A stretch of DNA of 64,000 nt from Chloroflexota bacterium. Lineage in GTDB: Bacteria; Chloroflexota; Dehalococcoidia; JACVQG01; JAHKAY01. How positions within the stretch are numbered: the first letter of the stretch is position 1; the number at the start of each line of letters is the position of its first letter. The notes under the pieces are model-generated. The model made no database searches and had not been told where the DNA came from. It was given only the letters and a program-made list of their open reading frames with translations. The position numbers and the translations under genes were made by a program. The stretch spans positions 1-64,000 of the forward strand of contig JAHKAY010000052.1 in assembly GCA_018825785.1 (NCBI GenBank). The letters are read 5' to 3'. Shown here in pieces: positions 1,361 to 64,000 of the stretch.

Positions 1361-2194
1361 TTAGAGTCCCGCCGCTGTTCCAGCATACTCCATGGGGGTC
1401 CGGTCCTTCAACGAGCTGTGCGGTCTGACCTCGTTGTAGTCCCTCCGCCAGTTCTCGATGGTGTCCCGGGCATGCCTCAGGCTCATGAACCAGTTCTCGT
1501 TCAGGCACTCGTCCCTGAGCCTCCCGATGAAGCTCTCGGCATAGGCATTCTCAATCGGCTTTCCTGGCCGGATGAAGTTCAGCTTCACGCCCTTGCGGTA
1601 TGCCCACTCGTCCAGGGCCCGTCCTGCGAATTCGGGGCCGTTGTCCACGGTGATTACCTCTGGGAGCCCACGCAGTTCCCCTAGCCTCTCCAGTACGCTG
1701 GCCACCCTGGCACCCCCGAGGGATGTATCTACCTCGATGGCAGGGCATTCCCTGGAGTAGTCATCAACGATGGCCAGGGCGCGAAAGCGCCGCCCGGTGA
1801 CTATGCTGTCGGCGACAAAGTCCATGGACCAGCGCTCATTCGGCCGCTGGGGTGACGGCATCACCACCCTCAAGCCGGCAGCACCTTTCCTCCGCCTCTT
1901 TCTCCTCAGCGCCAGACCTTCTTCGCGGTAGATCCTCTCCGCTCGCTTATGGTTGACCACCAGGCCCTCCCTCCTGAGCATGATGTGAAGCCGGGGACTG
2001 CCAAACCGCTTCCTCTCACCTGCCAGCTCCCTCAGGCGCCGGCGCAGTGTATCGTCACCATCCGACCTCGGCCGGTAGCGGTAGACCGAGGCCGAGATAC
2101 CCACCAGGAGGCAAGCCCTTCTTTCGCTCAGCCCAAGACTGTCCCTGGCATGGGAGACCGCCAGGCGTTTGGCCCTGGGCTTCAGAAGTTTTTT
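1361..2194 (-). CDS. IS3-family transposase OrfB, DDE integrase domain, made by -1 frameshift
   Basis: The frame holds the HTH_21 region and an rve/DDE integrase core. The catalytic residues are D in MDFVADS, D in VDNGPEF and E in AYAESFIGR. It is continuous from the slippery heptamer at 2194-2188 (the fusion reads ...[18 protein letters not shown]) down to 1361, and the first possible independent start is a GTG at 2104. The active transposase is probably the OrfAB fusion, with orfB alone a minor product if made. Motifs [16 protein letters not shown] and RPHSSL place it near IS407/IS2-type enzymes. Confidence 0.93.
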
Positions 2195-2445
2195 GAGAGG
2201 AGTTCCTTCAACGCCCGAATATCCAGGGCCTGCTCCGCCACTATCTGCTTCAGGCGGCGGTTCTCGTCCTCCAGGGCTTTGAGCCTCTTGAGGTCACTCA
2301 CCGTCAGGCCGGCGTACCTGGCCTTCCAGTTGTAGTAGGTGGCATCGCTGATCCCGTGCTGGCGGCAGAGATCCGAGACCTTGGCCCCGGCCTCCCCCTC
2401 CCTGAGCACCGCGATGATCTGTTCCTCGGTATGCCTTGATTTCAC
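2182..2445 (-). CDS. IS3-family transposase OrfA (HTH protein)
   Basis: This 87-residue protein has the OrfA layout: an HTH that binds the element's ends (motif [20 protein letters not shown]) and a C-terminal leucine-zipper-like helix ([19 protein letters not shown]). The start ATG is at 2445. The gene ends on a slippery A-AAA-AAC heptamer at 2194-2188, immediately before its stop, so ribosomes slipping by -1 continue into orfB. Confidence 0.93.
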
Positions 2446-2540: not shown

Positions 2541-2597
2541 TTCCAACCCAATTCTAACCTCTTCCCAATGAGCTTCTAACCTTTCTCGCGCTAAGCT
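2541..2597 (+). promoter_or_regulatory. PHO-box-like array of four heptamers at 11-bp period, with putative -10
   Basis: TTCCAAC (2541), TTCTAAC (2552), TCCCAAT (2563) and TTCTAAC (2574) start exactly 11 bp apart. A possible -10, TAAGCT, lies at 2592-2597, 11 bp after the last copy. This is the geometry of PhoB/OmpR-type activator sites that replace a -35. The array precedes the aminotransferase gene at 2648. The spacing is seen directly; the binding protein is inferred. Confidence 0.6.
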
Positions 2598-2647: not shown

Positions 2648-3787
2648 ATGAAGATACCGTTTGTGGACCTGAGGAGACAGTACGCCGCCATCCGGGGGGA
2701 GGTCCAGGATGCCGTAGCCCGAACCCTGGAGGGGATGCATCTCTTTCTGGGGGAGAACGTCCAGGCCCTTGAGCAGGAGTTTGCCAGCTTCTGCGGCTCC
2801 CGCTTTGCAGTAGGTGTTGGCTCCGGCACCGATGCCCTGTACCTGGCCCTGCGGGCCTCCGGTATCGGCCGCGGGGACGAGGTCATCACGGTTTCCCACA
2901 CCTTTATCGCCACGGCGGAGGCTATCGCTCTCACCGGGGCGGTGCCCATCTTCGTGGACATAGACCCGGAAACCTACAACATGGACCCAGGCCAAATAGA
3001 GGAAAGGATAACTACCAGGACCAGGGCTCTGCTGCCGGTACACCTCTACGGCCACCCCGCGGAGATGGGGCCCATCCTGGACATCGCTCAAAGGCATGAC
3101 CTGCGGGTGATTGAGGATGCCTGTCAGGCCCATGGGGCCCGGTATCACGGGAGGGCGGCGGGGAGCCTTGGGCACCTGGGCTGCTTCAGCTTCTATTTCA
3201 CCAAGAACCTTGGAGCCTATGGAGAGGCGGGGATGGTGGTCACCGATGACCCCCAGCTCGCTGAGACCCTGCGCTTCCTCCGCAACCACGGCTCGCGCAG
3301 CAAGTATGAGCACTGCCTTCTGGGAGTAAATGCCCGCCTGGATGAGATACAGGCGGCAATCCTGCGGGTCAAGCTGCCCCACCTGGAGACCTGGAATGAG
3401 AGAAGAAGGGAACTGGCCCAGCATTATGCTCAGCAACTGCCGCCCTGGATGGTAAAGCCCGTAGAGCGGCCTGGCTGCCGCCATGTCTATCACCTCTATG
3501 TCATCCGCACACCATGGCGGGACCAGCTCAGGGAATGGCTCAAAGAGTGCGGAGTAGAAACCGGCATTCACTACCCCATCCCGGTCCACTGGCAGGCGGC
3601 CTGCCAGACCTATTCTGGGGCCAGTGGCCTTCTCCCTGCCACCGAGGAGGCTGTCAGCGAGATACTATCCCTTCCGATGTACCCCGAGTTGAAGGAAGAA
3701 GAAGTGGACTATATCTGCGGTTCCATCACGCAGTTCTTCGAGACACGGACAGCCAAGAAGGCTCCGGCGGCCCTGGTCGGGAGATAG
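2648..3787 (+). CDS. DegT/DnrJ/EryC1/StrS family PLP-dependent sugar aminotransferase
   Basis: This 379-residue protein has full family length. It begins with the usual KIPFVDLRRQY and carries GSGTDAL, the PLP-phosphate region, VIEDACQAHGA, and FYFTKNLGAYGEAG with the Schiff-base lysine near residue 186. Family members transaminate nucleotide keto-sugars to amino-sugars for surface glycans or lipid-linked oligosaccharides; the exact sugar cannot be read from sequence. A ribosome site (AAGGAG) precedes the ATG. Upstream lies the 11-bp-period array at 2541-2580, so expression is probably controlled by a PhoB-like regulator. No other amino-sugar gene is adjacent. Confidence 0.9.
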   Translation: MKIPFVDLRRQYAAIRGEVQDAVARTLEGMHLFLGENVQALEQEFASFCGSRFAVGVGSGTDALYLALRASGIGRGDEVITVSHTFIATAEAIALTGAVPIFVDIDPETYNMDPGQIEERITTRTRALLPVHLYGHPAEMGPILDIAQRHDLRVIEDACQAHGARYHGRAAGSLGHLGCFSFYFTKNLGAYGEAGMVVTDDPQLAETLRFLRNHGSRSKYEHCLLGVNARLDEIQAAILRVKLPHLETWNERRRELAQHYAQQLPPWMVKPVERPGCRHVYHLYVIRTPWRDQLREWLKECGVETGIHYPIPVHWQAACQTYSGASGLLPATEEAVSEILSLPMYPELKEEEVDYICGSITQFFETRTAKKAPAALVGR

Positions 3788-3914: not shown

Positions 3915-4361
3915 TTACCGGCCTCCAAGGTCAACCCGCTGGAGCTCGCCCATGGCCGTCCAGCGGACCACTGCGGGGGTGGTGGAAGCCGTCTCGCCAT
4001 CAACGGTGAACCGCAGCACATCCCCCGGCAGGGCCCCCTCGTCCTCTGGGGTAGTGGGGTCATCGGCATATACCGGCATGAGTCCATACCGTCCGGCCCG
4101 GGTGACCACGAACTCCCCGGAGAGCACTCCCTGGGGGTCGTAGGCCCTCACTACGGAGCCGACGGGCAAGGGCCTGTCGTTCCACAGGCTATCGGGGCTG
4201 TAGAAGTTCATCCACCACGGGGTTGGAGCAGGCTGGTCAGAAGCAGCCACTGCTACCCCACCCACCAGAAAGACCAGCAGGGCCGGCGCTAACACAAGGA
4301 GCAAGCGAAGAGTGGGATTCCTCGCAGCCCAAGGGCAGACCTTCACGAAAGTATTCATCAC
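3915..4361 (-). CDS. Exported small protein, paralogue of the protein at 717-1289
   Basis: A GTG-ATG pair (4361/4358) starts a 148-residue protein. A hydrophobic segment (residues ~17-40, ending VAVAAS) looks like a signal peptide, followed by the domain shared with 717-1289: WWMNFYSPDSLW, AYDPQGVLSG, AGRYGLMPVYADDP and DEGALPGD. Unlike its paralogue it seems to be cleaved. The putative -10 (CATAAT, 4372-4367) is so close to the start that the mRNA may be leaderless, and five 11-bp-period repeats lie just upstream. Function unknown; a phosphate- or stress-regulated surface protein is inferred. Confidence 0.75.
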   Translation of the reverse strand: MMNTFVKVCPWAARNPTLRLLLVLAPALLVFLVGGVAVAASDQPAPTPWWMNFYSPDSLWNDRPLPVGSVVRAYDPQGVLSGEFVVTRAGRYGLMPVYADDPTTPEDEGALPGDVLRFTVDGETASTTPAVVRWTAMGELQRVDLGGR

Positions 4362-4366
4362 GCGAT

Positions 4367-4434
4367 ATTATGGAGGGAAGAGGGTAAGGGAAACGGTTAA
4401 GATGGGTAAGAAACCGGTTAGAACGGGGTAAAGG
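4367..4434 (-). promoter_or_regulatory. PHO-box-like array of five heptamers plus -10 upstream of the exported protein gene
   Basis: Read on the minus strand, CCTTTAC (4434), TTCTAAC (4423), TTCTTAC (4412), CTTAACC (4401) and CCCTTAC (4390) begin at exact 11-bp steps. A -10-like CATAAT follows at 4372-4367, 11 bp after the last repeat. The spacing and lack of a -35 hexamer are typical of OmpR/PhoB-class activated promoters. Confidence 0.65.
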
Positions 4435-4452: not shown

Positions 4453-5313
4453 CTAAATCAAGTTGCGCAGGTAGTCGCGGAGTTCCGCACCCAACTCGGG
4501 ATGGTCCAGCGCCAGGGCTACGGTTGCCTTGAGCCAGCTCATAGGGGTCCCGGCATCATACCTGACCCCCTCATACTCCACAGCGTAAATCTTCTCCCTG
4601 GGCAAGAGCCGGCGGAGACCATCGGTAAGCTGAATTTCCTGCCCCCTTCCCGGGGGGGTAGCCTCCAGCGCAGCAAATATCTTGGGTTCCAGAACATACC
4701 TCCCCACGATAGCCAGGTCTGAAGGGGCCTGCTGGGGAGAGGGCTTCTCCACCAGGTCCAGCACCTGGTAAAGGCGAGGCCCAATCTGCTTTGGGGCGAT
4801 GATGCCGTAGCGCCCGACTTCCTCCTTTTTCACCCTTTCCACCGCCAGTACACAGCCCCCCAATTCCCCATAGGCCTCTATCAACTGGCCAATAACAGGC
4901 CCGTTGCCAACAAAGACATCGTCGGGGAGAAAGAGGGCGAAGGGCTCCTCCCCTACCACTGCTTGCGTTACCAGAACGGCATTCCCCAGGCCCAGCTGCT
5001 CTTTTTGCCTCACATAGGCGATGTCCGCCATGTTGGAGAGCCGGCGGACCTGTTCCCAGAGGGCGGTCTCTCCCCGCTGCTGAAGAAGGTATTCCAGTTC
5101 AAAAGAACGGTCAAAATAGTCCTCAATGGCCCGCTTCCCCTGGGCTGTAACCATGACAACCTGCTTCAGTCCCGCGGTGACGGCCTCCTCCACGGCATAC
5201 TGAATAATAGGCTTGTCCACCAGGGGCAGCATCTCTTTGGGTTGAGCTTTAGTAACGGGGAGAAACCGGGTGCCCCACCCCGCGGCCGTGATCACCGCCT
5301 TGCGAACTTTCAT
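4453..5313 (-). CDS. galU: UTP-glucose-1-phosphate uridylyltransferase
   Basis: This enzyme makes UDP-glucose from UTP and glucose-1-phosphate for glycans and envelope polymers. At 286 residues it has the normal bacterial GalU length. Visible motifs are KAVITAAGWGTRFLPVTKAQ (nucleotide binding), PKEMLPLVDKPIIQYAVEE, FALFLPDD and VEKPSP. The ATG at 5313 follows an AGGAGG site. It is the last gene of a minus-strand run behind the two-component pair, with a small membrane ORF overlapping its start. Confidence 0.95.
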   Translation of the reverse strand: MKVRKAVITAAGWGTRFLPVTKAQPKEMLPLVDKPIIQYAVEEAVTAGLKQVVMVTAQGKRAIEDYFDRSFELEYLLQQRGETALWEQVRRLSNMADIAYVRQKEQLGLGNAVLVTQAVVGEEPFALFLPDDVFVGNGPVIGQLIEAYGELGGCVLAVERVKKEEVGRYGIIAPKQIGPRLYQVLDLVEKPSPQQAPSDLAIVGRYVLEPKIFAALEATPPGRGQEIQLTDGLRRLLPREKIYAVEYEGVRYDAGTPMSWLKATVALALDHPELGAELRDYLRNLI

Positions 5314-5443
5314 CGGCCTCCTTCACCCCATTCCTCACAGCCCGAAGGACCCGGTTGTATAGCGGAGAAAGCAGAAAACAAAAAAGGACATAGAGTCCTG
5401 CCAGTCCGCCAATCCCCACCAGCGCCACCAGCAATACCTTCAA
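5249..5443 (-). CDS. Possible small membrane protein, coupled between histidine kinase and galU
   Basis: A TTG at 5443 overlaps the kinase stop codon as TTGA and opens a 64-residue frame. Residues ~2-28 are strongly hydrophobic (KVLLVALVGIGGLAGLYVLF), followed by a basic, polar tail, as in a single-pass membrane peptide. The last 65 bases overlap the start of galU in another frame. The stop/start overlap and clean hydrophobic segment support it; the uncommon start and overlap argue against. Function unknown. Confidence 0.4.
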   Translation of the reverse strand: MKVLLVALVGIGGLAGLYVLFCFLLSPLYNRVLRAVRNGVKEADESSQGGDHGRGVGHPVSPRY

Positions 5444-6525
5444 GGTATAGCGAGCCTCTCTTGAGCGGGTACCCTGTTCCTGGGGAGGGCAAGAGAGAAG
5501 GTGCTGCCCTTCCCCGGTTGGCTCGTGGCCCATATCCTGCCGCCGTGCGCCTCCACGACGGCTTTGCAGAGGCTGAGCCCGAGCCCCTTCCCCAGCGCGG
5601 GCAGCCCGTTGTCCACGCGATAGAAGAAATCAAATATCTTTTCCAGTTCCCGTATGGGGATACCTATCCCTTCGTCCCTCACCTGGACCAGAGCAAGGGG
5701 CAAGAGCGAGGCGAGGTCTTCCTGGTCCCGGACAGCCGGGGGCAGCTCATCCACGCTCCGTACGTATTCTGACACTATTTCTATGGTCCCACCTTGAGGT
5801 GAATACTTAAGGGCATTCCCTATCAAGTTCACCAGCAACAGTCGCATCTTCGTTTCGTCCAGAGAAAGTCTTGGCATGGTGCGGGGCGCCTTCACCCTAA
5901 TACAATGGTCAGGCGCCTCCTCCTGCAGCTCCAGGGCCACGGACCTGACGAGCGAGGGCAACGAAACTGGCCGCAGCACAAGATCGAAACCGCCCTTTTC
6001 CAGCCGCCAGGATTCGATCACATTGCCCACCAGCCGTGCAAGGCGCGAGCAAAGATGTTCTATAGCCAGGAGGTACTGCCTCTCCTGTTCATCGGAAATG
6101 CGGCCCTGCATTTCCTGGAGGACGGTGGCGTAGGATTTGAGGGTGCCCAGTGGAGAGAGGAGTTCATGGGAAAGGAGGACCAGTTCGTCCGGTTCAGCCC
6201 TCTTCCTGGAACCGACCTCTTCCAGGGTTATCATCCACCGCGCTCCATCCCTGCGGTTGAGAAGCCTCTGGTGGACGTGAAACCTTCTTCCGTTTCCCTT
6301 GGTCCCGGGCGACCTGATCTCTAGCTCCCCGTCCCCACCCGGGCGGGCAGACCCCGGACTGCGCCCCAGGGCCTCCGCACAGTGGCGCCCGATATTCTGC
6401 CCGATTAGCTGACGGGCCAGGGTGTTCTCGGCAATGATCCTGAGGTTCCGGTCCAGGGCAAGTATGGGCTGGGGGGCCTTTTCAAGGGCCTCACTCCAGC
6501 CAAACCAGCCCCTCTCGTTCCTCAA
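5440..6525 (-). CDS. PAS-domain sensor histidine kinase (PhoR-like)
   Basis: This 361-residue protein has an N-terminal PAS-like domain (~residues 10-110, LALDRNLRIIAEN), a HisKA helix with the phospho-acceptor in LLSHELLSPLG (~residue 143), and an HATPase domain with N box (LIGNALKYSPQGG), G1 (VRDEGIGIPI) and G2 (GKGLGLSLC). No transmembrane segment is visible, so it is probably cytosolic or lacks the N-terminal membrane part of classical PhoR. It overlaps the response regulator by 4 bases (ATGA) and is the obvious partner. The signal is unknown. Confidence 0.92.
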   Translation of the reverse strand: MRNERGWFGWSEALEKAPQPILALDRNLRIIAENTLARQLIGQNIGRHCAEALGRSPGSARPGGDGELEIRSPGTKGNGRRFHVHQRLLNRRDGARWMITLEEVGSRKRAEPDELVLLSHELLSPLGTLKSYATVLQEMQGRISDEQERQYLLAIEHLCSRLARLVGNVIESWRLEKGGFDLVLRPVSLPSLVRSVALELQEEAPDHCIRVKAPRTMPRLSLDETKMRLLLVNLIGNALKYSPQGGTIEIVSEYVRSVDELPPAVRDQEDLASLLPLALVQVRDEGIGIPIRELEKIFDFFYRVDNGLPALGKGLGLSLCKAVVEAHGGRIWATSQPGKGSTFSLALPRNRVPAQERLAIP

Positions 6526-7241
6526 GAGACCCGTTTCGCTGCTACAAGCTCCGAAGATTCTATAGCCAGACGGTAGCCCAAACCCCTCTGAGTCAAAATG
6601 TATTTGGGGTTTTCGGGGTCTTCCTCAAGTTTCTTGCGCAAATAGCGAATATATAGCTTGATATACTCCCTCTCATTGACATAGGCAGGACCCCAGACAT
6701 GGAACAGCAGCTCCCTGTGGCCTATTACCTTGTTCTGGTTGCGCATGAGGTAAACCAGCAAACGAAACTCCGTAGGGGAAAGTGTCACTCTCCTGCCATT
6801 AACCGATACCTGGTGGGTCCTCAGGTCGACGTGCACCTCCTTGCAGGTAAGAACAGCCGGCTCGTCTCCACCGTTGCTCTTGCTGCGTCGAAGAAGAGCC
6901 CTAACCCGGGAGAGCAGCTCCTTGTGGTCAAAGGGTTTGCTCACATAGTCGTCCGCCCCCAGCTCAAAGCCCCGCAGTATGTCGGTGTTGCCGTTTCTGC
7001 CACTGACGATGATGATTGGAACGTCAGATGCCTCCCGGATGCGCCGACAGGCCTCCCAGCCATCTATCCCGGGAAGCATGATATCCAACAGGACCACGGC
7101 AGGACGGGAATTGTAGAGAAGCCGTATTCCTTCTAGGGCATTGCAGGATGATAGGACTTCGTAGCCTGCCCGGGCCAGCCAGTCTTCGAGAAGCGCCCTG
7201 GCCTCCGGGTCATCTTCTACTACCAGAACCCGGTCCCCCAT
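6522..7241 (-). CDS. OmpR/PhoB-family response regulator
   Basis: This 239-residue protein has a receiver domain (residues 1-120; acidic pocket VVEDD, phospho-acceptor D in VVLLDIMLPG, K in YVSKPFD) and a C-terminal winged helix (residues ~135-230; LSPTEFRLLVYLMRN, YIRYLRKKLEEDP, LGYRL). The start follows GGGAGG. It forms an operon with the kinase at 5440-6525. OmpR/PhoB regulators bind direct repeats with ~11-bp period, and such arrays lie at 2541, 4384, 7431 and 63321, so it is a good candidate to bind them, including near its own gene. Confidence 0.94.
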   Translation of the reverse strand: MGDRVLVVEDDPEARALLEDWLARAGYEVLSSCNALEGIRLLYNSRPAVVLLDIMLPGIDGWEACRRIREASDVPIIIVSGRNGNTDILRGFELGADDYVSKPFDHKELLSRVRALLRRSKSNGGDEPAVLTCKEVHVDLRTHQVSVNGRRVTLSPTEFRLLVYLMRNQNKVIGHRELLFHVWGPAYVNEREYIKLYIRYLRKKLEEDPENPKYILTQRGLGYRLAIESSELVAAKRVS

Positions 7242-7307
7242 CTTAGTAACCTCCCGACCCGATTCTCCCTCTGGAGGGGTGAGAAGCGACTGCGTTATTC
7301 AGTCTCG

Positions 7308-7336
7308 TCTATAACCAAATAGTACTTCTCGCCCAA
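7308..7336 (-). promoter_or_regulatory. Probable promoter of the response regulator-kinase operon
   Basis: TTGGGC (7336-7331) and TATAGA (7313-7308) are separated by 17 bp on the minus strand, ~70 bp upstream of the regulator's start codon. Confidence 0.5.
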
Positions 7337-7430
7337 GGAGTATGGTACCTTTTTCCTACGCCGCCAGCAGAGAGCCTAGCGCATTTCCTCAATAATGTCA
7401 ATATTGGAGATATCCCCCCACATACCAGAA

Positions 7431-7448
7431 TTCTAACAAGATTCTAAC
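7431..7448 (+). promoter_or_regulatory. Pair of TTCTAAC heptamers at 11-bp period
   Basis: Two perfect TTCTAAC copies start at 7431 and 7442, between the divergent response-regulator operon and the gene at 7547. No good -10 lies 11 bp downstream on the plus strand. The pair could serve autoregulation of the regulator operon rather than direct activation of the plus-strand gene. Confidence 0.5.
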
Positions 7449-7546
7449 CGACCCCTCCCCCAAAAATGACTTTGCCTTGCCCACAATGGGTAGGGCTCAA
7501 GACAGGTGCGTTTGAGAGGAGACAGAGGAGTTGCCTGAAAAGGCCC

Positions 7547-8482
7547 GTGAAAACGCTGGCTAAGGTTATCCTGGTAGCGGAGAGTGATGCCTTCTCCCGA
7601 GAGCTTCTGTCTTCTGTCCTAACGCGCTCGGGATACCGCGTCATCTCAGCGGCCACAGCCAGGGAGACTATGGATAAAGCCAGCCGAGAGGGACCGGACC
7701 TTATCCTTGTTGACGTGGCTCTGCCTGACATGGACGGATTTGAGACTTGCCGGCGGCTACGCCATAATCCGGCTACTGAAACAATACCGCTCCTCCTTAT
7801 GGAGGCGGCGGCAGAGCCAGGGGCGCAGGAGAGGGCTCTCCTGGCCGGGGCTGAAGGAAGTACTTCCAAGGCGGCAATATCCGGGGAACTGGTTTCCCGT
7901 CTGAATCGGCTTTTCTGGCCCCTGGAGGCAGCAAAAGCTAATGACACCCTGACTCGCCTCCCGCAGTATCGTGCCTTTCTATCCCAAACGACCAGACTCC
8001 TCTCCAAGAACGAGCCTCTTGCCCTCCTGGCCGTGAAACTCGTTGGCTTCAGGGCTCTCAGCCCGAAGGAGAAGGAGCAGGCCATTCGCCTTGGAGCCAT
8101 GGCGATAAGGGAAGCGCTGGCCATTCTGGGAAAGCCATCAGATATAGCCAGCTACCAGGGCAGGGGAAATTTCCTGGTTCTTACAAGCCCTTACCGTGCC
8201 TCAGCCCTGTGCCGCCGTATTCTTGCGCGCTTCCAGAGTCTGGCTGCAAGCTTCCTTACTTCCCAGCCTCCTCCGTCTCTTGTCATCGGCGGGGTCACCA
8301 ATCTCCACCGTGGTTTCAGGAATGTCAGCGAGATAATCCGGCTTGCCGAACAGGGGGGCAAGTATGCTCGGCGGCGGGGGCTCGGGCACTATCTAGCCTC
8401 CTGGGAAAAGAGCCTCTTGGGAGAAGCGGTGCCCCCTCCTCCCCCGGCCCCTTTTCGGGGCGCGCGGCTGCAGGGGGAATAA
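7547..8482 (+). CDS. Response-regulator protein with degenerate GGDEF-like domain
   Basis: A receiver domain (VILVAESD, D in LILVDVALPDMDGFE) is followed by a ~160-residue region arranged like a GGDEF domain (DTLTRLPQYRAFL at its start). The signature is replaced by QGRGNF, so diguanylate cyclase activity is unlikely and a sensing or scaffold role is inferred. The conserved receiver lysine also seems lost (TSKAAIS). The frame is open from an ATG at 7466, but the GTG at 7547, preceded by AAAGG, fits the receiver start better. The next gene follows after 38 bp and is a probable partner. Confidence 0.75.
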   Translation: MKTLAKVILVAESDAFSRELLSSVLTRSGYRVISAATARETMDKASREGPDLILVDVALPDMDGFETCRRLRHNPATETIPLLLMEAAAEPGAQERALLAGAEGSTSKAAISGELVSRLNRLFWPLEAAKANDTLTRLPQYRAFLSQTTRLLSKNEPLALLAVKLVGFRALSPKEKEQAIRLGAMAIREALAILGKPSDIASYQGRGNFLVLTSPYRASALCRRILARFQSLAASFLTSQPPPSLVIGGVTNLHRGFRNVSEIIRLAEQGGKYARRRGLGHYLASWEKSLLGEAVPPPPPAPFRGARLQGE

Positions 8483-8520: not shown

Positions 8521-9978
8521 ATGCCAATAGGCAATCATCTTGTGCGACGGCTTGAGCTGCCGGTAGTAGCCATGGAGCTGGCAGTGAAATCCTTGCTCAG
8601 CGAGACGACCCTGAGCGCTGAGCATCGCAAATCTTTGGACACGGTTCACCGTCAGTTGGTGGGCCTCCTCCGTAGCCTGGACGACTTGAAGGCAGGGCGA
8701 ATAGCCGAAGGCCCGTTGGTGACCCAGCCCGGGGAAGTTGACCTGGCGGAGGCGTTCAGCCAGGCCCTGGGCCTGATGGAAGGAAGGGCCCGGGAAAAAG
8801 ACATAAAGCTGGAGGTGGCGGAACTGTCCCCCTGCAGCCTCTTCTGTGACGCTGGGCTCCTGCTGAAGGTATTCTTCTACCTTTTACGCGCCGAGGTAGA
8901 AGTGGCTCCCTCCGCGTCTCGGATTGCCATCAGGGGCTACCGGGAGGGGGAAAACGCCAGAATCGAAGTAATAAATCCCTCCCGTCCAGCCTGGCCTCGC
9001 GTGCTGCCCCGCACCGGTCCGGGCCAGGACCTCTCCCTGGCCCAACGCCTGGCCCACGCCGTGGGCGGTGCCCTGAGGGCCAAGAGGGGGAAAGAGCGGG
9101 GAACGATTATACTCCTCCCCTGCAGCTACAGCAGTCCCTACCTGAGGGTAGGCCGCTTTCAAACCCAGGTCAACTCCAGAGTTCAGCTAGCCCTGAAGGA
9201 AATCGGAAGAATCCGAAAGGGACTGGAAAGGGATGAAAAGCTGGCCCGCCGCATGGAAGAGAGCCTATCTGCCCTGGAAGGCGCGGTGAGGGAAGCTCGG
9301 AGCGGCGCCAACTCGCTGGCTCTCATCGGTGATGAGATGGCATACAGGGAACAGGTCCAGCAGGACCACGTGGCCCAGCTGGAACTGGACCAGCTCACCT
9401 TTTTTGAAGGTGTCCTCGATATTGCCCGCGAACTAGTATCATTCTACAAGGGTCTGGCTCTGAACCCGGAAAGGGCCAGACGCGTTGCCCGCTTGGCCCT
9501 TTCCATCGCCTCAGAGCTGCACCTCTCCACGGCACAAAAAAGGAGCATCTACTATGGGGCCCTCCTCCACGAACTGGTCTTGCCGCGGGAAGAGGAGGCC
9601 AAGTCACACCCTCCTGACGAGGCGAAGACAAAAGAGCGCCTGCAGCTCCTCAGGGCCCTGTCTCAGGTAAGCTTCCTCTCCAAGGCCCTCCCTCTATCCC
9701 TGGCTGTCCATGAGAGGTTCGATGGAACGGGTTCCCCTCACGGCTTGAAAGGGCAGAGAATACCCATGGAGGCCCGCATCCTCGCCGTGGCTGACCAATA
9801 CGAAGCCTTGGTCTCCGAGGCCTTGCGCCTCGGCCCTGAGGCCTCAGAAAGGGTCAGGGAGGAAATAATGGCCGCCTCAGGGACGGCCTTTGACCCGGCA
9901 GTGGCAGACGCCTTCCTCCGGGCCTGGAAGAGCAGGAGGCTAGCCATAGAGATTGAAGAGGTGAGCCGCGGCGACTGA
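8521..9978 (+). CDS. Histidine-kinase-like ATPase/HD-GYP-like signalling protein, both domains degenerate
   Basis: In this 485-residue protein, residues ~1-70 resemble a dimerisation helix without a clear phospho-acceptor. Residues ~75-210 resemble an HATPase domain with weak N and G boxes. Residues ~215-300 look coiled-coil. The C-terminal ~170 residues follow HD-GYP spacing (YYGALLHELVL, HERFDGTGSPHGLKG, ARILAVADQYEAL), but HD is HE and GYP is SPH. Catalysis on c-di-GMP is therefore doubtful. It probably acts with the upstream receiver protein. A series of RNA hairpins follows the stop codon. Confidence 0.75.
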   Translation: MPIGNHLVRRLELPVVAMELAVKSLLSETTLSAEHRKSLDTVHRQLVGLLRSLDDLKAGRIAEGPLVTQPGEVDLAEAFSQALGLMEGRAREKDIKLEVAELSPCSLFCDAGLLLKVFFYLLRAEVEVAPSASRIAIRGYREGENARIEVINPSRPAWPRVLPRTGPGQDLSLAQRLAHAVGGALRAKRGKERGTIILLPCSYSSPYLRVGRFQTQVNSRVQLALKEIGRIRKGLERDEKLARRMEESLSALEGAVREARSGANSLALIGDEMAYREQVQQDHVAQLELDQLTFFEGVLDIARELVSFYKGLALNPERARRVARLALSIASELHLSTAQKRSIYYGALLHELVLPREEEAKSHPPDEAKTKERLQLLRALSQVSFLSKALPLSLAVHERFDGTGSPHGLKGQRIPMEARILAVADQYEALVSEALRLGPEASERVREEIMAASGTAFDPAVADAFLRAWKSRRLAIEIEEVSRGD

Positions 9979-9981
9979 GAC

Positions 9982-10138
9982 GCCCTTTGAGAGGGCACGG
10001 CAAGGCGCGTCAACATCATGCTCCTGGCAACCCGGGGATGACTTGAGGAGAAGGCCCGGGTTAACCCTCTGTAGCTAGCAGAGGCTGGGCGGAACTCAAA
10101 TCGAGTTCCCTCTTTCACCTGTAAGCTCTTTCTTACAG
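9982..10138 (+). ncRNA. Run of five hairpins: candidate structured RNA ending in terminators
   Basis: Five stem-loops follow each other: GCCCT/AGGGC (9982-9996), AACCCGGG/CCCGGGTT (10029-10062), CCTCTG/CAGAGG (10066-10084), GGAACTC/GAGTTCC followed by CTCTTT (10091-10115), and CTGTAAG/CTTACAG (10119-10138). The last two resemble weak intrinsic terminators; the first three are not needed for termination. It could be a 3' UTR structure, an independent small RNA or a leader for the gene at 10296. I match it to no known riboswitch. Confidence 0.4.
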
Positions 10139-10295
10139 CTTCCTTTCAACGACGGGGCAGCCAGTGGCTCTTGCCCATTTACCAAACCATTACCAGGTTT
10201 TCCGCCGAAATTGACAGAAACTTAATCCTCTTTGCCCTGGTTCTTTACCTCTTGGGCTTAAAGTCAGAATGCGAATAGAGAAAGGACGTAAAGAT

Positions 10296-10628
10296 ATGCC
10301 CAAGAAGGAAGAAACCGGACGCGTCAGCCTTGCGAAGGGAAAGGCCCTCCTGGCTATGAGGGACCGTTTCCTGTCCCTGCAGGAGAAGTACAGGGACCAA
10401 CTAGAGCAGAATAGAGATGTTCCGCTGGTGGCCGAGGTAGTCCTGCGGGATGTAGTCAAGACGATGGAGAAAGAAGGGCTCAACTCTGTTCTGGAGCAGC
10501 CCCAAGGCGTCATGTTTGCTGAGCTCCTTGGACACATTGCCAAGCAGAGCTTCCTCTACGGGTACCTCTGGGCTAAGGGCGAAGAAGAGCAAGAGGCCAT
10601 CGGAGAAAGCGGAACTCCCAACAGATAG
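10296..10628 (+). CDS. Hypothetical small cytosolic protein
   Basis: A 110-residue, charged, largely helical protein without signal peptide or membrane segment. The ATG at 10296 has an AAAGGA site; an in-frame ATG at 10269 lacks one. Visible segments are a basic N-terminus and a helical stretch, LLAMRDRFLSLQEKYRDQLE. I recognise no family. It stands alone between the hairpin region and the convergent thioesterase gene. Confidence 0.6.
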   Translation: MPKKEETGRVSLAKGKALLAMRDRFLSLQEKYRDQLEQNRDVPLVAEVVLRDVVKTMEKEGLNSVLEQPQGVMFAELLGHIAKQSFLYGYLWAKGEEEQEAIGESGTPNR

Positions 10629-57604: not shown

Positions 57605-58819
57605 TCAGCTCCCGTGCTCTAGCCTGAATCCTTTCTCAGTGAAAACCTTCAGGCAAGCATCTGCCACCCGGGGGTCATAAAGGATGCCCCTATGCCGCGA
57701 GATTTCCTCTAATGCCTTGTCCATACCGAGAGCCGGTCTGAAGGGGCGGTGGGAACACATGGCCTCAACCACGTCGGCCACACCCAAGACCCTCGCCTCC
57801 AGAATGATGTCTTCGCCAGAAAGACCTGCAGGATAGCCAGACCCGTCTAACCTCTCGTGGTGCTGGAGTATTGCCTGGGCAACCGGCCAGGGGAATTCTA
57901 TTCCTTTCACTATGTCGTATCCCGCCTCGGAGTGAGCCCTGATTAGGGACATTTCTACGCCGGCCAGCGCCCCGGGCTTGTTTAGAATCTCGGCTGGTAC
58001 ATACATCTTGCCAATGTCATGAAGAGTCCCAGCCACACGGATTCCATCTATCTGCACCTCGGGGAGGCCCATCTGCCCGGCTATAGCACAGGCCAGCAGG
58101 GTCACACGCTGCTGATGGCCTGCTGTGTAAGGGTCCCTCTTTTCAGCTACTGATGCCAGGGCACTGACCATTCCCTCCAATATTGTCCCCAACTTCCCAT
58201 TCTGCATCTCATGCCAGCTTCGTTTGAGTGCTTCTTCCGTCGCCCGCTTATGCCCGAGATTTTCAATGACCTCCCACTTACCTTGCCGCTTGATAAGAGT
58301 CCCTTGATGGTTGCTGGACGCATCGATTATCTGGTATGCCAAACATTTATCGAGAGAATGCGAACAAATGACAACAATCCGATGTTTGCCAATAATATTG
58401 TCTAGTGTTGCTTCATAGTCAGCGAATGCTCTCCAATCCTCTTCTTCAAGCCAAGAGGTGTCCCCGGCCACGCGAACCCCAGTAAATCCTCTTTCTACAG
58501 CTTGTCTCTCTTTCTTGAACCAATCCTGCAGCGTCTCATCTTGGTCGAATTTCCTTGAGTTGGTGTAACACTCTCTGGCGTCGACTATCTCTATTTGGCC
58601 CCCCTTGACATATTCGTCCAGATTCATCACTGCCTTTGCTAGTGCTGCCTTTGCGGCCGCAACTCCAAGGAACTCTGAAGTAGCCCAAATGCAGAGCTGT
58701 CCCCTTTTTAACCCTTCTTCCCAGTAAGGTATCAAAATATCAAGCAGGTCTTCTTGTATCTTGTAGAATAGGCACAGGTGCGTGCCCCAGGAGACATTGC
58801 CTACCACCCCAACCCCCAT
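57605..58819 (-). CDS. MEDS-domain/HD-GYP c-di-GMP phosphodiesterase
   Basis: A 404-residue protein. Residues ~8-180 match the MEDS sensory domain (GTHLCLFYKIQEDLLDILIP, GLKRGQLCIWAT). Residues ~210-400 are HD-GYP with intact metal residues (GTLHDIGKMYVP) and HHERLDGSGYPAGL, so hydrolysis of c-di-GMP is likely. The start follows AAGGAGG. This contrasts with the degenerate pair at 7.5-10 kb, and may be the active c-di-GMP hydrolase of the region. Confidence 0.9.
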   Translation of the reverse strand: MGVGVVGNVSWGTHLCLFYKIQEDLLDILIPYWEEGLKRGQLCIWATSEFLGVAAAKAALAKAVMNLDEYVKGGQIEIVDARECYTNSRKFDQDETLQDWFKKERQAVERGFTGVRVAGDTSWLEEEDWRAFADYEATLDNIIGKHRIVVICSHSLDKCLAYQIIDASSNHQGTLIKRQGKWEVIENLGHKRATEEALKRSWHEMQNGKLGTILEGMVSALASVAEKRDPYTAGHQQRVTLLACAIAGQMGLPEVQIDGIRVAGTLHDIGKMYVPAEILNKPGALAGVEMSLIRAHSEAGYDIVKGIEFPWPVAQAILQHHERLDGSGYPAGLSGEDIILEARVLGVADVVEAMCSHRPFRPALGMDKALEEISRHRGILYDPRVADACLKVFTEKGFRLEHGS

Positions 58820-63192: not shown

Positions 63193-63424
63193 CTTAGCTT
63201 CAAAACGAACCACCTAAAGTATCAATAGGTAGAAACCCGGCACTCTTTAGTCCACAGAAATTGAAAATCGGGCGCTATCATTCACATCTGAAGGTCAGGA
63301 ATATTCAAAAAGGAGAGGTATTCTAACCGGATTCTCACTAAAACCTAACTTGACTAACTTATACTTTTGGTATCATTGTATCGATTACAGGATTTCACGG
63401 GTGCTCTGGCGAAAAGGAGGTTTT
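63193..63424 (+). promoter_or_regulatory. Control region with three 11-bp-spaced heptamers
   Basis: TTCTAAC (63321), TTCTCAC (63332) and ACCTAAC (63343) are exactly 11 bp apart. TATACT at 63360-63365 is a fitting -10, 10 bp after the last copy. Just after the array lies a TTGACT with TGGTATCAT further on, a second possible promoter. It precedes the small frame at 63425 and the Tat-exported protein at 63554. Confidence 0.6.
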
Positions 63425-63553: not shown

Positions 63554-64000
63554 ATGGCTGGTGGTAAACGGGGGATAGCAGGAAAGGGAACAGACCTTCG
63601 CGAGCGCAAAGCCGAGGGCCAACGATTGACGCGGAGGGCACTCCTCAAGCGCCTGGGCCTAGGCACTGCGGCGGCAGTGGGGCTCACGTACGTCCAACCG
63701 TCGCTAGGTTCCATTGGCGTGTCAAAGGCATTCGCCCAAGGCAGGTACGGACCGACTCCCACGCCCACGCCCACTCCCACACCCGGTCAGCCGTATATCA
63801 CTCCGACCTCTGGCGGGCCTGGTTCGCCGTTCACCATCTACGACCCGGGCGGGCGAATTATGCCGTATGACATTGTTGTGTTCTATCCCGCAGGAACAGA
63901 CCCTGCGTTGGGCAACCTCGCAGCCAATGTAGCCGTTAGTGCAGATGGTAAGACCCTCACGGGTTACGTTGCACCAGCTGCCCTGATTGCGACACCGCAT
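63554..64000 (+). CDS. Tat-exported protein with PT linker (3' partial)
   Basis: The ATG at 63554 follows AAGGAGG and the frame is open to the window edge. Residues ~25-62 are a Tat-type signal: the twin-arginine motif LTRRALLKRLG, then a hydrophobic segment (LGTAAAVGLTYV) and a site near KAFAQG. A Pro/Thr repeat (PTPTPTPTPTP) precedes a domain starting ITPTSGGPGSPFTIYDP. It is therefore a secreted or surface protein folded before export. Its promoter region carries the 11-bp-period array, so phosphate-type control is possible. Confidence 0.85.
   Translation, partial: MAGGKRGIAGKGTDLRERKAEGQRLTRRALLKRLGLGTAAAVGLTYVQPSLGSIGVSKAFAQGRYGPTPTPTPTPTPGQPYITPTSGGPGSPFTIYDPGGRIMPYDIVVFYPAGTDPALGNLAANVAVSADGKTLTGYVAPAALIATPH

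Follow-up and report, generated by a model that had tools for sequence, protein, structure and literature searches.

The DNA analysed here, a stretch of 64,000 nucleotides that we call the window, carries four arrays of TTCTAAC-like heptamers. They are part of a genuine regulon of the OmpR/PhoB family that serves envelope and exopolysaccharide genes and appears not to have been described before. From the sequences at hand we consider it quite probable that the regulator of the local two-component pair activates these genes through arrays of four boxes. An earlier note on this DNA had listed arrays at 2541, 4384, 7431 and 63321 and proposed a PHO-like regulon governed by the local PhoR/PhoB-type pair. 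All four arrays were found at these positions (Table 1). The regulon, its Pho-box geometry and the local pair as best candidate for its control were upheld; phosphate, which that note already doubted, fell away, as the cut-offs for Pst, PhoB and PhoR were all missed. No prior description of TTCTAAC arrays or of such a Chloroflexota regulon was found in the open-access literature.

Table 1. Arrays and genes of the window, with positions counted from its first nucleotide.
Feature	Position	Strand	Details
Array	2541–2597	+	Boxes 2541 TTCCAAC, 2552 TTCTAAC, 2563 TCCCAAT, 2574 TTCTAAC; -10 TAAGCT at 2592
Array, four boxes	4365–4423	-	4423 TTCTAAC, 4412 TTCTTAC, ~4401 CTTAACC, ~4390 CCCTTAC; -10 TAATAT at 4370
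Array	7431–7487	+	Exact TTCTAAC at 7431 and 7442; degenerate boxes 7453, 7464; -10 CACAAT at 7482
Array, four boxes	63321–63376	+	TTCTAAC 63321, TTCTCAC 63332, ACCTAAC 63343, CTAACTT ~63352; -10 TATCAT at 63371
DegT/DnrJ/EryC1 sugar aminotransferase	2648–3787	+	Pfam 407 bits
Small exported/membrane-anchored protein	3915–4361	-	N-terminal hydrophobic segment; paralogue of 717–1289
GalU, UTP-glucose-1-phosphate uridylyltransferase	4453–5313	-	TIGR01099 349 bits, cut-off 327
Histidine kinase	5440–6525	-	PAS-like N-terminus, HisKA, HATPase_c
OmpR/PhoB-family response regulator (REC + winged helix)	6522–7241	-	Pfam Response_reg 99 bits, Trans_reg_C 86 bits, both above cut-off
REC + degenerate GGDEF-like protein	7466–8482	+	Pfam Response_reg; downstream of 7431 array
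HD_5 protein (HD-GYP-like, degenerate motifs)	8521–9978	+	Pfam HD_5 64 bits
Tat-signal-like (RRALLKR), Pro-Thr-rich exported protein	63554–64000	+	Runs on to 64072 past the window (L105:3555–4073)

Contig C52, whose positions 1–64000 make up the window, belongs to a draft genome of 1.59 Mb in 60 contigs that is 97% complete. Allowing at most one mismatch, the pattern TTCTAAC-N4-TTCTAAC matched four times in the window, whereas 100 shuffles that preserved the dinucleotides averaged 0.00. Genome-wide the count was seven (window 4, contig C37 2, overlapping, and contig C47 1), with only two loci outside the window, a triplet at C37:11820 and a site at C47:28709. At up to two mismatches, 13 matches were counted in the whole genome and 3 for the control pattern read backwards. 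What is said here of the arrays, their geometry and orientation, how rare they are in the genome, their conservation and their association with one regulator clade, is all read from sequence.

The anatomy of the site was examined in an alignment of the seven sites of this genome and two sites upstream of regulators in the relative G004, registered on boxes 1 and 2 only. In this nine-site alignment the box-matrix score peaked exactly at +22 and +33, and TATAAT-like hexamers clustered at +50 to +53; each effect had P ≤ 0.0005, as it was not reached once when the downstream sequence was shuffled 2000 times. The layout is up to four 7-bp boxes with 4-bp spacers at an 11-bp pitch and a -10 hexamer ~51 bp from box 1. 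Box 4 typically ends 11–13 bp before the -10 element, which no array of this genome overlaps, and every array is oriented toward a nearby downstream gene. The heptamer pairs described earlier exist, as parts of longer sites with four boxes plus a -10 element, and the expected 11-bp direct repeats have the geometry of the Pho box. Pho boxes of E. coli and Streptomyces are tandem 11-bp units of 7 conserved and 4 less conserved positions (PMC4415409), and PhoB-type boxes end ~10 bp before a sigma-70 -10 element (PMC4415409, PMC1906773). By its sequence, the array layout is that of PhoB-type activator promoters.

In the mechanism that we propose, the kinase and regulator at 5440–7241 would form a soluble-sensor two-component system whose regulator, once phosphorylated, occupies as many as four TTCTAAC-like heptamers in head-to-tail order at the 11-bp pitch. 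Because box 4 ends 11–13 bp before the -10, the bound regulator would stand in for the -35 element and recruit RNA polymerase (class II activation). We infer binding, activation, phosphorylation and the exopolysaccharide role from this arrangement. A role of the arrays in repression or as a mixed operator, with the regulator blocking the promoters, appears most unlikely: OmpR-family regulators are capable of both activation and repression and the 4423 array almost abuts the start codon, but the placement of box 4 clear of the -10 in this genome is the activator position in PhoB promoters.

The open reading frame at 6522–7241 on the minus strand carries both Response_reg and Trans_reg_C domains, in agreement with the OmpR/PhoB-family regulator noticed earlier amid the arrays; its recognition helix reads NEREYIKLYIRYLRKKLE. 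The kinase gene shares 4 bp with the regulator's stop. No obvious transmembrane segment was seen in the kinase (top 19-residue hydropathy 1.23), which aligned at 36% identity with a GAF-PAS kinase of the relative G102. A TTCTAAC pair had been assigned to the upstream region of the regulator; the pair at 7431 exists, but it points at the divergent REC gene (7466/7531), away from the regulator, which starts at 7241. The real start of this REC gene is probably the TTG at 7531. Two boxes only of the 7431 array are good ones. The REC gene product is 31% identical to a REC-GGDEF-HATPase-HD protein of G102, and it and the product of 8521–9978 are, by sequence comparison, the first and second halves of one split output protein, with a fused counterpart at L196:7137–9722 in G102. 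Elsewhere in the window (57605–58819), an HD_5 (HD-GYP-like) domain is fused to a MEDS sensory domain.

A sequence-only model of the seven own-genome sites (R1) recovered on the same genome its seven training sites, the 7431 array among them at 1.3e-8, together with one new site at C47:19745–19803 (E 0.011) and one doubtful match (E 0.14). This eighth site has boxes CTCTAAC, TTCCTAC, CATACAC and TGCTAAC with TACAAT at +51 and lies directly upstream of a UDP-glucose dehydrogenase gene, which is followed by genes for a phosphomannomutase/phosphoglucomutase, a nucleotidyltransferase, and GlmS-like, PqqD-like and radical SAM proteins. The remaining C47 sites stand before an NTP_transf_5 gene and, divergently, a FlgD-Ig-like protein gene; farther along C47 are a subtilase gene and one for an XrtA/PEP-CTERM-type-like amidotransferase (616 bits vs a cut-off of 817). 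At C37 the array stands before the gene of an exported Pro-Thr-rich Tat protein, and PqqD and HprK-like genes come next. In the window, the arrays precede the genes for the DegT aminotransferase (2541 array), the exported protein, the REC-GGDEF-like/HD pair and a second Tat Pro-Thr-rich protein, in keeping with the earlier observation that they lie near surface, exported or glycan genes. Judged from these annotations, the common theme of the array-bearing genes is cell-surface polysaccharide and exported protein. The proposed regulator would switch on, on the sugar side, the DegT aminotransferase, UDP-glucose dehydrogenase with its sugar-nucleotide operon and the NTP_transf_5 protein, and also the exported Tat/Pro-Thr-rich proteins and the divergent REC-GGDEF-like/HD output proteins.

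An array at C37:14835 and weaker matches in C6, C13, C21 and at C40:968 were missed by R1 and taken as chance. Exact pairs at G013:C89 and the sites at G028:C71 and C47:25055 were also taken as chance, their geometry or promoter context being unconvincing. IS3-family-like transposase genes (window 1361–2440) lie directly upstream of the 2541 array, the DegT promoter. On either side of the IS element plus the DegT gene lie the exported-protein genes 717–1289 and 3915–4361, which are on opposite strands and encode products of 62% identity. Homology of an exported protein of G102 (L196:1075–2055) to the 3915–4361 product was not supported on comparison.

A second model (R2), built from 14 sites, was run on 245 genomes of the class, with the same sites reversed as control (R3). 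Training sites came from four genomes, including G004, G028 and G019, the last contributing four sites with boxes of the form TTC-N-TAC, not TTCTAAC. At E ≤ 0.001, R2 gave 8 matches outside the four training genomes and R3 none; at E ≤ 0.05, R2 matched in 28 genomes vs 8 for R3 (8 weak matches in all), so the weak R2 matches include chance ones, with E-values being rough and the genomes draft assemblies. Several of the held-out matches, found by DNA search alone, adjoin response regulators. A search with the regulator as query returned mainly unrelated OmpR-family regulators (best 44%), used as tree background only.

In the resulting tree, the window regulator, its paralogue on contig C40, two array-adjacent regulators of G004 and those of G102 and G159 (two loci) formed one clade with support 100/98, the only addition being a long-branch regulator of G190, whose contig carries a weaker match. 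Recognition helices in this clade are of the type Y-(I/V)-K-L-(Y/H)-(I/V)-x-Y-L-R. Since the array-adjacent regulators of held-out genomes share the clade of the window regulator, the link between the arrays and the local regulator is much stronger than in the earlier inference. It is unlikely that the arrays are instead bound by another OmpR-family regulator, be it the C40 paralogue or any of the nine that are more distant. The genome has eleven Trans_reg_C genes, the window regulator and 10 others, among which the C40 paralogue is 72% identical, and in family f45 arrays of like kind adjoin a different regulator clade; against this, the array-adjacent regulators of G004, G102 and G159 group with the window regulator, and among the own-genome regulators in the tree only the C40 paralogue joins them. 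The C40 copy may share sites. It lies on a short contig (C40:1–4557, L104) with galE and two tyrosine-recombinase-like genes, suggestive of a mobile or rearranged copy.

The earlier note had made its proposal depend on conservation of the motif in orthologous promoters, and such conservation was found. In G004 (same order, another family), a regulator 66% identical to that of the window has TTTTAACCTCTTCCTAAC upstream, and a second has ATCTAACCTAAATCTAAC, with two additional boxes that fit and, at +52, an exact TATAAT. The contig of the 66% identical regulator holds DegT, GalU, kinase, regulator and array, GalU adjoining the kinase as in the window; the array at G004:C7, with two or three boxes only, was omitted from the models. 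In G102, the array has the regulator/kinase genes on one side and, on the other, a divergent gene for one protein that combines REC, GGDEF, HATPase and HD_5 domains, the layout of the window except that the output protein is there split over two genes. After the G102 output protein come UDP-glucose dehydrogenase (Ugd), a bacterial sugar transferase and, within this exopolysaccharide cluster, a DegT protein 68% identical to that of the window. In G159, conservation is by place beside the regulator, and in G019 all six of six arrays precede exported-protein or histidine kinase genes. At another G102 locus (L195, G102:C4:85000–104999; 10080–10300), two divergent four-box arrays share one intergenic region, and one faces an apparent undecaprenyl-diphosphatase (UppP) gene.

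The likeness to Pho promoters raises the possibility of a true Pho regulon, in which a PhoR/PhoB-type pair would sense phosphate limitation and the surface genes would be secondary. As in Pho regulons, 7 + 4 bp direct repeats precede a -10 element by about 10 bp, and in geometry and in spacing from the -10 the boxes match the Pho box (PMC1906773, PMC4415409). The boxes resemble both the Streptomyces GTTCACC box and the cyanobacterial SphR box, three tandem repeats of CTTAACCT (PMC1906773). A membrane-anchored protein with two PhoU domains is encoded at C59:11590–12153 (L009), in a genome lacking a Pst transporter above cut-off. In spite of these features we regard a true Pho regulon as very unlikely. 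The best genome matches for PstB and PstC were 180 bits (cut-off 343) and 17.8 bits (cut-off 196), the regulator scored 187.6 bits as PhoB (TIGR02154, cut-off 296.2), and the kinase scored 124 bits as PhoR (TIGR02966, cut-off 334) and has no hydrophobic segment of membrane-helix grade. Among the array-bearing promoters read in this genome and its relatives, none precedes a phosphate gene. With the Pst genes missing above cut-off and the PhoB and PhoR scores too low, the switch, though built like a PhoB promoter, is almost certainly not a Pho regulon on the sequence features tested. The signal of the activating pair is probably not phosphate.

Comparison with known systems showed partial likenesses. 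E. coli PhoB shares the tandem 11-bp units near the -10 and the regulator family (PMC4415409, PMC1906773), but here the box is TTCTAAC rather than CTGTCAT, there are four boxes, the kinase is soluble, the targets belong to the envelope and Pst is below cut-off. Cyanobacterial SphR sites likewise repeat in tandem every 11 bp, at least three times, with a comparable TTAACC-like core (PMC1906773), but precede pst/phoA, whereas the arrays here precede sugar-nucleotide and exported-protein genes. The sites of Mycobacterium tuberculosis PhoP are direct repeats of 7 bp whose 4-bp spacing is strict, and the protein binds three or four of them more tightly than two (PMC4832192); its TCACAGC core, recognition helix and regulon differ. 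The closest solved structures to the regulator by sequence are KdpE, RegX3 and MtrA, but the NCBIfam equivalog scores shown for it are all below cut-off, that for KdpE (NF007820) being 174.7 bits vs 325. In the proteobacterial PrsK/PrsR PEP-CTERM regulon, a two-component system and a shared promoter element likewise serve many exopolysaccharide-linked exported-protein genes (PMC1569441), but PrsR is sigma-54 dependent and the regulator here is OmpR-type with a sigma-70-like -10. An exosortase/PEP-CTERM system was considered and rejected: the genome has PqqD and, below cut-off, a TIGR03108-like (XrtA-like) amidotransferase and an HprK-related kinase, but no match to exosortase (PF09721). The array clusters at C37:11883–13833 and C47:8000–22000 contain PqqD, HprK-related kinase, radical SAM, NTP_transf_5 and XrtA-type amidotransferase genes in this genome without exosortase.

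Arrays of the same kind face chaperone genes in other genomes. In family f45, the array is oriented toward groES/groEL (G169, G191 and G202; G148 likewise with an array). In G169 and G191 a GAF-PAS kinase/regulator pair is encoded on the other side of the array, divergently from groESL, and in G202 a regulator of the f45 clade is ~1.5 kb from the groESL-facing array. In G044 the array precedes grpE-dnaK. Four boxes and a -10 at about +51 were seen at L212 (G169:C57), L213 (G191:C120), L206 (G202:C36), L202 (G148:C76) and L200 (G044:C36). The f45 array-adjacent regulators formed a clade separate from, but related to, that of the window regulator, with a similar recognition helix, EDQYVRLYVTYLRQKIE. 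A two-component heat-shock switch is a possible reading of the groESL and grpE-dnaK arrays. The idea that one soluble-sensor OmpR-type lineage has kept a strict promoter code (four boxes of 7 bp every 11 bp, then a -10 at +51) and swapped its targets, exopolysaccharide and exported proteins in the window genome, G019, G102 and G159 vs groES-groEL in f45 and grpE-dnaK in G044, strikes us as evenly balanced between right and wrong.

For a group of little-studied bacteria, these findings define a promoter code together with a clade of regulators and a set of genes. As the held-out matches indicate, the rule of four boxes plus a -10 element is precise enough to predict targets elsewhere from DNA only. 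If the chaperonin reading is true, a two-component system would take the place of HrcA/CIRCE or sigma-32 in running part of the heat-shock response in those genomes, and the two branches would lend themselves naturally to comparison, one regulator family keeping its operator layout while its targets change from surface coat to chaperonins.
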